Source: Paramicrobacterium chengjingii (GTDB lineage Bacteria > Actinomycetota > Actinomycetes > Actinomycetales > Microbacteriaceae). Taken from it: a stretch of DNA of 64,000 nucleotides. Shown one piece after another: positions 16,732-18,344 of the stretch. Position numbers and translations under genes: made by a program. Numbering within the stretch: the first letter of the stretch is position 1; every line of letters begins with the position of its first letter. The notes under the pieces were generated by a model, which made no database searches, was not told the origin of the DNA, and worked only from the letters and a program-made list of their open reading frames with translations. The stretch is from assembly GCF_011751765.2 (NCBI RefSeq), contig NZ_CP061169.1, positions 1,736,001 through 1,800,000 on the forward strand, read 5' to 3'.

Positions 16732-17802
16732 TCATTCGACATAGACATGCTCCGCCGCACGTGCGAGGCGGATCACGATCTCTTCACCGATGGACCCCAT
16801 TGCATCAGCCCACACCTGAAGGGATGATTCTCCGTGCGTTCCGTCGCCAAAGAGGTACACATCGTCACCAACCGTTGCGCCACTCCCGCTGAGGTCAATG
16901 TGAGCCTCAGTTCTGGTCACCCGCACGAACGGGTAACGCCGATTTCGGATGGCAACGTCGACGACGCCCTCGGCATCGCTGTAGAGCCCATTCACCTGCC
17001 CGACTGGAATGCGCGCGATCGTGCGATTATGGACGGTCTCGACGGCGCTCACGGTCGTTGATAGCGTGAGCGCAGGCGTCAGCCCGAGCTGCTCAGGGCC
17101 AATACCGTCGCCGGGTGCGATCCCATACACAAATGCCCCGACACGCACCATGTCGTATCGTGCATCGGCGCGCTCGAACGATGCGGCACTCGCTGCGAGA
17201 TGTCGCAGCCGAGGTCGCAGGCCAACGGAATGCGCACGGCGAATCGCGTCGTCGAACCGGCGGATCGCTGCGGAATCGGCGTCGTAGGATGCCTCGGCGA
17301 TATGCGTCCAAATGCCGGTGACGTCGATGACGCCTTCGTTCTGTAATTCGGCAGCACGCTGGAGGAAATCCGGCCAACCACCGGCGAGCACACCAGCCCG
17401 GTGCAGGCCGGTGTCGATTTTGAGATGAACGCGAGCACGGCGGTCAATGCGTCGTGCGACGTCGGCAACACGCTCGAGCATTGACGGATAGGAGACGCCA
17501 AGGTCAATGTGTGTGGAGATCGCCGTGGCGATGTCGTCGCCTTCGCCGAACACCCAGGCAAACACCATCGCCTCAGGCGCACGTTCGCGAACTTCGCGTG
17601 CCGTGGTGAGATCGAGCGCGCCAAATCGATGAAACCCCGCTCCGGAGAGTGCGGAAACGACTTCAGTGATGCCGTGGGCGTAGGCATCGTCCTTCACGAC
17701 GACAGCCAACTCGGCGGGAGCGACGCGTTGCGCGACCAGTCGCGCATTGGTAATGAGTGCACTGCGAGAAACGACAGCTCGCGCGTGGGATGCTCGGATC
17801 AC
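16732..17802 (-). CDS. Alanine racemase-like PLP protein lacking the catalytic tyrosine loop
   Basis: The N-terminal TIM-barrel domain is that of alanine racemase. The PLP lysine is Lys37 in VVVKDDAYAHGI, followed by HLKIDTGLHRAGV, RLRHLAASAA and DMVRVGAFVYGI. The C-terminal beta domain is degenerate. Where the family has GYADGYPR with the catalytic tyrosine, this protein reads PVGQVNGLYSDAEG, and the following GRVSMD motif is also missing. The GTG start at 17802 forms a GTGA overlap with the stop of the upstream gene and has GAGGAG nine bases before it, so the two are translationally coupled. Length 356 residues. It may be a racemase for alanine or another amino acid that needs the upstream protein as partner. 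Cytoplasmic. Confidence 0.85.
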   Translation of the reverse strand: MIRASHARAVVSRSALITNARLVAQRVAPAELAVVVKDDAYAHGITEVVSALSGAGFHRFGALDLTTAREVRERAPEAMVFAWVFGEGDDIATAISTHIDLGVSYPSMLERVADVARRIDRRARVHLKIDTGLHRAGVLAGGWPDFLQRAAELQNEGVIDVTGIWTHIAEASYDADSAAIRRFDDAIRRAHSVGLRPRLRHLAASAASFERADARYDMVRVGAFVYGIAPGDGIGPEQLGLTPALTLSTTVSAVETVHNRTIARIPVGQVNGLYSDAEGVVDVAIRNRRYPFVRVTRTEAHIDLSGSGATVGDDVYLFGDGTHGESSLQVWADAMGSIGEEIVIRLARAAEHVYVE

Positions 17803-18344
17803 TCGGAAACGCTCCTCACGACGCGACCATCGAGGCATGCAGCTAATGACACGGGCGATTCTCCGAGTGACTCTGCCCATTCCCCAAGCGACACCTCGCC
17901 TCTGCGCGGGTCCCCGAACACGCAGACTCGCGACCCGGGAAGTACGGGAGCGTCACCCGCATCCACAACAAACTCGTCCATGGCCACGCGCCCGACAATC
18001 GGAAGACGAATCGGGGGACCTTCGGCCGGTGACCAGGTAACAGAAACGCTGTTGCCGGCCTTTCGAGGGATGCCATGACCGTAGCCGATGGCGACGCGCG
18101 CCAGTGTTGTCGGATGCTGCGTGACATACGTGTGGCCGTACGAGACGCCCGAATGCGCGGGTACACGTTTCGTTGAGAGCACCTCGACGAATAATCGGAC
18201 GGGATCGGACATGAGTGTCGAGTCGAACGCGGCAGCGGCATCTGCGTCGCCGTGAACGGCACCGATGATTTTCGAGCGTTGGGAGGCAGAAAGATACAGT
18301 ACTCGTGCGCCCGCTGTGTGAGCTTCGGACATTAACGAGACCAT
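17799..18344 (-). CDS. Free-standing alanine racemase C-terminal domain protein
   Basis: The protein has about 181 residues. After roughly 60 residues without clear homology it carries what looks like a complete alanine-racemase C-terminal domain. GVSYGHTYVTQ, VAIGYGHGIPRKAGN (Tyr88, equivalent to the catalytic Tyr265 of Bacillus Alr) and IVGRVAMDEFVVD are all present. The PLP barrel is absent. In normal alanine racemase the tyrosine acts on the partner subunit's active site, so this protein could complete the site of the downstream racemase. I chose the ATG at 18344, preceded closely by GGGGAGG; an ATG at 18332 and a farther one at 18404 are alternatives. The stop overlaps the next start (GTGA). 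Confidence 0.8.
   Translation of the reverse strand: MVSLMSEAHTAGARVLYLSASQRSKIIGAVHGDADAAAAFDSTLMSDPVRLFVEVLSTKRVPAHSGVSYGHTYVTQHPTTLARVAIGYGHGIPRKAGNSVSVTWSPAEGPPIRLPIVGRVAMDEFVVDAGDAPVLPGSRVCVFGDPRRGEVSLGEWAESLGESPVSLAACLDGRVVRSVSE

Follow-up and report, generated by a model that had tools for sequence, protein, structure and literature searches.

We analyzed a 64,000-nucleotide stretch of contig NZ_CP061169.1 of Paramicrobacterium chengjingii (hereafter, the window) and examined two adjacent genes on its minus strand, S and L. The upstream gene, S (positions 18344-17799, with ATG at 18344 and TGA at 17799-17801), encodes a barrel-less alanine-racemase beta domain of 181 amino acids. The downstream gene, L (17802-16732, with a GTG start at 17802), encodes a 356-amino-acid protein that consists of a pyridoxal phosphate (PLP) barrel followed by a heavily eroded C-terminal domain. 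The S stop codon and L start codon overlap in the tetranucleotide GTGA (17799-17802, minus strand), as read in the sequence.

A sequence-only reading of the locus had described the downstream protein as an alanine-racemase barrel with its PLP lysine but without the GYxDGxPR loop and GRVSMD motif of the C-terminal domain, and the upstream protein as lacking a barrel but keeping exactly these parts. Both descriptions held. L matched the Pfam domain Ala_racemase_N (PF01168; 159.9 bits) and gave a weak match to the C-terminal domain (38.8 bits). Its PLP lysine, Lys37 (17692-17694, minus strand), lies in VVVKDDAYAHG, the sequence GQVNGL occupies the GYxDGxPR site of alanine racemase (Alr), and GRxxMD is missing. 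S matched Ala_racemase_C (PF00842; 92.3 bits) alone and contains GYGHGIPR, which includes Tyr88, and GRVAMDEF, which includes Arg119 and Met122. Both proteins scored below the cut-offs of the NCBI alanine racemase equivalog TIGR00492 (168 bits; L, 144.1; S, 63.1) and of the VanT serine racemase model NF033131 (460 bits; L, 90.4; S, 48.6). The predicted fold of L is confident and resembles a whole Alr chain, and the S fold also matches Alr chains. The nearest named S is from P. fandaimingii (81%).

As for a separate canonical alr, which the sequence-only reading had raised, the host genome also contains two intact single-chain Alr genes, one with Tyr and one with His at position 354. The His354 protein is the third Alr-type racemase of the host (locus L161, 7229-8384, minus strand); it is single-chain, has all other motifs, and reads TIEHEIM at this position, and its branch in the barrel tree described below is very long. 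The S-L pair is flanked by a divergent gene for an ATP-grasp protein (PF14397; 18464-19483, plus strand) and by a gene for an F420-ligase-like protein (PF01996; 19550-20251, minus strand). A promoter scan at the locus found none, which is uninformative because only 0.6 would be expected by chance.

Assignment of active-site residues

In ordinary Alr, each active site lies at a head-to-tail dimer interface and is built from residues of both chains. One chain contributes the PLP lysine, while the other contributes the catalytic tyrosine, Arg309′, Met312′, and the entryway residues. To our knowledge, alanine-type racemases are generally taken to be single-chain homodimers.

We numbered residues by counting along the aligned M. 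tuberculosis Alr (MtAlr), anchored on Tyr364 as named in PMC3485190. By this count, the tyrosine of VSYG is MtAlr Tyr271′, equivalent to the catalytic Tyr265′ of the Geobacillus enzyme, and the tyrosine of GYxDG is MtAlr Tyr290′, equivalent to the Geobacillus entryway residue Tyr284′. Because the VSYG tyrosine aligns with Tyr271′/Tyr265′, the catalytic tyrosine of S is Tyr69 (VSYGH; 18138-18140, minus strand). The sequence-only reading had assigned this role to Tyr88 (18081-18083, minus strand); the numbering rules this out and identifies Tyr88 as the entryway Tyr284′ equivalent. The remaining residues of this half-site are also present in S, as Arg119 and Met122 (GRVAM; 17979-17990, minus strand) correspond to Arg309′ and Met312′ by numbering and conservation, and Arg94 corresponds to Arg290′ (M. 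tuberculosis Alr count). In L, Lys37, Arg135, His167, and Arg220 are the equivalents of the PLP-side residues Lys39, Arg136, His166, and Arg219 of Alr, and Glu340 (16783-16785, minus strand) replaces the alanine-selecting Tyr354. In three other genomes, all from genus g34, which includes Clavibacter californiensis (loci L118, L120, and L163), the canonical Alr has Phe at the GYxDG position (Tyr284′) and retains its catalytic tyrosine.

Complementary loss across the Microbacteriaceae

We compared 80 loci, which were mainly the best matches from 199 Microbacteriaceae genomes searched and are not a random sample. L was present at 52 loci, counting the window, and S was parsed at 49, giving 49 pairs; the L genes without a parsed S are those of L133 and L150 (S visible on the locus map of both) and of L157 (contig edge). 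Judged from the alignments, each chain lacks what its partner keeps. All 49 L proteins retain the equivalents of Lys39, Tyr43, Arg136, His166, Ser204, and Arg219. However, the segment that holds the catalytic-tyrosine hairpin measures 18-26 residues in the 49 L proteins versus 40 in all 44 full-length proteins, and 49/49 L show a gap at the catalytic-tyrosine column, where 44/44 full-length proteins have a tyrosine. L also never retains Arg309 (0/49) and rarely retains Met312 (1/49) or Arg290 (6/49). A large protein with a normal catalytic tyrosine, which would have spoken against the sequence-only reading, was thus found in none of these relatives; 16/49 L still have a tyrosine at the GYxDG position, which is the entryway residue, making this motif a looser marker than the hairpin deletion.

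S shows the converse pattern. The catalytic tyrosine, Arg290, and Met312 are each present in 49/49 S proteins and Arg309 in 47/49, and the Tyr88 position is occupied by Tyr in 40 proteins and by Phe in nine. Longer S proteins carry a decayed barrel start, and none of the 40 S that were readable at the PLP lysine position has the lysine (nine were unreadable). Since the pattern recurs in all 49 parsed pairs, it is not due to chance, and it favors the duplication and complementary loss that the sequence-only reading had suggested. We looked for a natural S-L fusion that would make a single chain, but 0 of the 49 pairs read in one frame.

At position 354, L has Asp in 25, Glu in 23, and a gap in one of the 49 proteins. 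The gap comes from L151 (genome G112), where L stops after the barrel. This L is 261 amino acids long from the start used and its C-terminal domain is nearly gone; loss may have gone further here, or the sequence may contain an error.

Linkage and co-inheritance of S and L

The GTGA overlap noted in the sequence-only reading is a common feature of the pair, as in 40/49 cases S immediately precedes L and its stop codon overlaps the L start (-4). L neighbors parE and/or rpoD in 52/52 mapped loci, in two relative orientations. An ATP-grasp gene occurs at only 12/52 L loci, with an F420-ligase-like gene marked at the same 12; the divergent ATP-grasp gene is therefore not conserved, and we discarded it as a constant partner.

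In Microbacterium, L was detected in 125/149 genomes (E ≤ 2.8e-51). Of the 24 genomes without L, 19 had no match and five had best matches of about 1e-36, and all 24 contained an Alr match (partial in G242). In each of 20 L-bearing Microbacterium genomes tested, a C-domain match adjoins L in a short frame (213-453 amino acids; under 300 in 19/20). No such short frame was present in the 24 genomes that lack L, where C-domain frames were at least 389 amino acids (G242, which is 81% complete, had no match). Since S and L occur together in 20/20 genomes and are absent together in 24/24, the pair is retained or disappears as a unit. Beyond the family, short C-domain frames were found in 0/111 genomes representing 18 further families of the order (frames of at least 367 amino acids among the matches listed; two genomes had no match). 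A search for a relative of L on plasmids gave only Alr-like matches of under 33% identity (10 records).

A mirror-image split in genus g77

In genus g77, 7/8 genomes lack an intact Alr-type gene, and every PF00842 match falls in one of two split pairs. One is S-L. The other, which we call L′-S′, has the reverse order, with L′ preceding S′ (loci L275-L280 and L282, from genomes G458, G457, G077, G459, G140, G460, and G192). In 7/7 genomes, L′ retains both the PLP lysine and Tyr354 (TINYEIVTR) and is missing the catalytic-tyrosine hairpin, while S′ keeps VSYG and has Thr in place of the PLP lysine. GR.AMD is found in 6/7 S′; the exception, G460, reads GTIAMD. In the remaining genome, G461, the tandem is intact, with a Tyr354 Alr first and an Asp354 racemase second. 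Peptidoglycan normally cannot be built without D-alanine. Because no Alr-type gene is intact in seven of the eight genomes, life with split racemases is evidently possible in g77, unless a transaminase makes D-alanine.

Origin of the split

Full-length racemases with an acidic residue at position 354 occur in tandem loci. At 20/20 loci, such a gene is the second of a tandem, preceded by an Alr with Tyr354 (Trp in two), and 20/20 of these acid-354 racemases have their own catalytic tyrosine. In a tree of 161 barrels built on 234 columns, with residue 354 left out, the acid-354 barrels formed one clade (SH-aLRT 98) comprising 53 split L, one L fragment, and the 20 full-length proteins. Within the barrel tree, split and full-length acid-354 forms are interleaved. 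We therefore considered whether L was split twice or more, independently, at the parE-rpoD position, and did not adopt this reading, since a single origin is compatible with the data (p-AU 0.566).

In a tree of C-terminal domains, which has few columns and is weakly resolved, 49/49 S domains were nearest to canonical ones, while S′ of G192 clustered with the full-length acid-354 proteins. The affinity of S for canonical domains and of S′ for acid-354 domains fits an origin of S from the first gene of the tandem and of S′ from the second, each by decay. The tandem paralogues, a Tyr354 Alr followed by an acid-354 racemase, may have begun to cross-pair and later lost complementary halves. In g77, the same ratchet would have acted on the alanine racemase, but in the mirror sense.

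Position 354 and the likely substrate

The identity of the residue at position 354 bears on what the pair might act upon. Tyr354 and Tyr265′ are described as a gate that limits Alr to alanine (PMC3485190). In the lysine racemase discussed there, the Tyr354 position is Thr, which lies against the side-chain nitrogen of docked D-Lys, and replacing this Thr with Tyr merely halved lysine activity (PMC3485190). Placing Asp or Glu at 354 is reported to make a thermophilic Alr less active on alanine (PMC4517790). The presence of Glu or Asp instead of the alanine-selecting Tyr354 in 48/49 L favors a new substrate, which the sequence-only reading had offered as a possibility. As an acid in the 354 pocket points to a basic side chain, Glu/Asp354 of L would both open the alanine gate and be able to pair with the side-chain amino group of the substrate. 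We think it somewhat more probable than the converse that the substrate is a diamino acid (ornithine in this organism, diaminobutyrate [DAB] or lysine elsewhere) that goes into the bridge of B2 peptidoglycan as its D-diamino acid. The choice between Asp and Glu does not appear to encode DAB versus ornithine, since Glu occurs in both Paramicrobacterium (D-Orn) and Glaciihabitans (DAB) and Asp occurs in Clavibacter (DAB).

Distribution in relation to cell-wall type

Group-B peptidoglycan is a wall type of long taxonomic use, and in this family such walls require a racemase product with a basic side chain. We inspected 131 of the 199 family genomes for racemase class and found split L in 55, a full-length acid-354 racemase in 20, and canonical Alr alone, within the loci fetched, in 56. 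For six of these 56 (G037, G038, G043, G078, G115, and G169), a second match lies outside the loci fetched, and G190, whose one Alr is of the canonical type and carries Val at the Arg309 position, was counted as canonical. No genome of the 131 contained both split L and a full-length acid-354 racemase. Mycetocola zhujimingii, whose wall we take to contain lysine, has canonical Alr only. Gryllotalpicola protaetiae and Labedella endophytica have the S-L pair.

We compared these classes with published wall types, which are mostly genus- or clade-level statements. Paramicrobacterium walls are described as B2 with D-ornithine (PMC10757982), and the pair is present in both P. agarici (G148) and P. 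humi (G001). The Clavibacter peptidoglycan bridge is given as D-DAB (PMC9603630), and the Clavibacter genus g34 has a full-length Asp354 racemase. L is present in M. phyllosphaerae, whose clade is described as D-Orn (PMC10757982), and NCBI entries for Homoserinimonas, listed as D-Orn, B2-beta (PMC7033078), contain S. Glaciihabitans sp. INWT7 has the S-L pair, and the wall of its genus is described as containing DAB, isomer unspecified. A genome that is probably M. invictum (G211; its Alr is 100% identical to an M. invictum entry) lacks both S and L, and the wall of this species is reported to contain lysine (PMC10978784). For other Microbacterium species, L-Lys is given for M. imperiale, M. 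arborescens, M. enclense, and M. gubbeenense (PMC10757982), and D-Orn for M. radiodurans and M. testaceum. Presence or absence fits the wall amino acid in Paramicrobacterium, Clavibacter (in the full-length form), M. phyllosphaerae, Homoserinimonas, Glaciihabitans, and the probable M. invictum.

Herbiconiux disagrees. Its wall is described as containing D- and L-DAB (PMC10011130), but the genome search gave one S-like and one L-like match in Herbiconiux sp. L3-i23 (G132), and only a Tyr354 Alr was seen in two genus-mates (L195 and L196). Since the genus is described with D-DAB and canonical Alr alone was seen, a separate D-DAB source probably exists in Herbiconiux, and the finding argues against a universal role of S-L. 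With this one clear exception, a diamino-acid role of S-L is a good, testable hypothesis.

Discussion

We propose that S and L form an obligately heteromeric fold-type III PLP racemase whose likeliest substrate is a diamino acid for B2 peptidoglycan, a reading to which we assign a probability of roughly 0.6. In the proposed enzyme, L would supply the barrel, PLP, and Lys37, and S would supply Tyr69, Tyr88, Arg94, Arg119, and Met122 in trans. Because S has no barrel, pairing of S with L would create a single active site; the C-terminal domain of L, left without a barrel to complete, has decayed. The sequence-only reading had suggested a heteromeric enzyme, and the finding that PLP-side residues are on L and the catalytic tyrosine is on S in 49/49 pairs strongly supports it at the level of sequence; from the same data we infer the assembly. 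A physical S-L complex with racemase activity is highly probable. We regard as evenly balanced the chances of the complete scheme, in which S and L necessarily pair as a heterodimer with one composite site, act as the D-ornithine, D-diaminobutyrate, or D-lysine racemase of B2 peptidoglycan and arose from a cross-paired tandem, with the g77 pair as its mirror image.

Other explanations differ in which part of this proposal they change. If S-L were a heteromeric racemase for some other amino acid, such as serine or arginine, or a broad-spectrum or catabolic enzyme unconnected with peptidoglycan diamino acids, one could account for the D-DAB wall of Herbiconiux strains in which canonical Alr alone was seen, for the many family genomes that seem to manage without S-L, and for the general widening of specificity described when Tyr354 is lost (PMC3485190, PMC4517790). 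We nonetheless consider this unlikely, as the replacement at 354 is acidic in 48/49 L (with one gap) rather than small or mixed, the acid-354 barrels form a single clade, and the named taxa mostly fit D-diamino-acid walls. That S-L is simply a second, heteromeric alanine racemase would agree with its family scores, which are those of alanine racemase, and with g77, where the Tyr354 split pair must serve as Alr, barring another source of D-Ala. This seems very improbable for S-L given that the host has intact Tyr354 and His354 Alr genes, that Glu or Asp at 354 cuts alanine activity in the thermophilic enzyme (PMC4517790) and that the 24/24 Microbacterium genomes without L all retain an Alr match (one of them partial).

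The need for two chains could also be questioned. L might be active without S, singly or as a homodimer, and catalyze different chemistry, leaving S as a regulator or stabilizer; the confident prediction of L as a whole Alr chain is compatible with this, and loss of the catalytic hairpin could signal another reaction. However, S retains trans active-site residues for which a mere stabilizer would have no use, the two genes are inherited together, and the split has recurred on a Tyr354 enzyme, all of which make an independent L a poor prospect. Finally, parts of the parent enzyme are missing from both proteins, as might be seen in a decaying pseudogene. This explanation, which we find barely credible, is contradicted by conservation: the PLP-site residues of L are invariant (49/49), the parE/rpoD position is constant (52/52), and the overlap is retained in 40/49 pairs.

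If S and L do form an obligate two-gene racemase with one shared site, they would be a clear natural case of paralogue interdependence reached through complementary loss, with intermediate stages preserved in present-day genera as barrels decayed to many different lengths. Every Alr-type racemase found in 7/8 g77 genomes would then be a heteromer. The pair is also a concrete candidate for the enzyme that supplies group-B peptidoglycan with its cross-linking D-diamino acid. Among the matches listed in a search of titles and abstract starts, which mostly did not extend to subscription journals, there was no split or heteromeric alanine-type racemase and no racemase gene for the group-B D-diamino acid. 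A literature search that combined the NCBI domain phrase "Alanine racemase C-terminal domain-containing protein" with Microbacteriaceae found no paper. NCBI entries with this name, which denotes the domain only, are S itself, and come from Paramicrobacterium, Salinibacterium, Homoserinimonas, Marisediminicola, Microcella, Labedella, and Microbacterium.

The closest known relatives of the pair are the Alr/DadX enzymes (PF01168 plus PF00842, TIGR00492), with which S and L share folds and, jointly, the residues of one active site. S-L differs from them in being split over two chains, in having Glu or Asp at Tyr354 and in scoring below the TIGR00492 cut-off; unlike in single-chain Alr, the catalytic tyrosine (Tyr265) is not on the L chain but on S. 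The full-length acid-354 racemases of Microbacteriaceae such as Clavibacter belong to the same barrel clade, share Asp/Glu354, and are the second gene of a tandem in 20/20 cases, but they are single chains with their own catalytic tyrosine (20/20), and their function is putative. The lysine and broad-spectrum racemases Lyr and Bar resemble L in that Tyr354 is also replaced, by Thr391 in Lyr and Ala393 in Bar (PMC3485190), and they share the basic-amino-acid preference that we propose for S-L. However, Lyr and Bar are single-chain homodimers with Thr or Ala at 354, where the L studied here has Glu340 (Asp or Glu across L), and in them Asn follows the conserved Arg, whereas the L sequence reads Arg135-Ala136. 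A more distant parallel is the trypanosome AdoMetDC, which is described as being activated by prozyme, a dead paralogue (PMC5201418, PMC6221367). That enzyme is unrelated and its activation is described as allosteric (PMC5201418, PMC6221367), whereas S would contribute residues to the active site itself.
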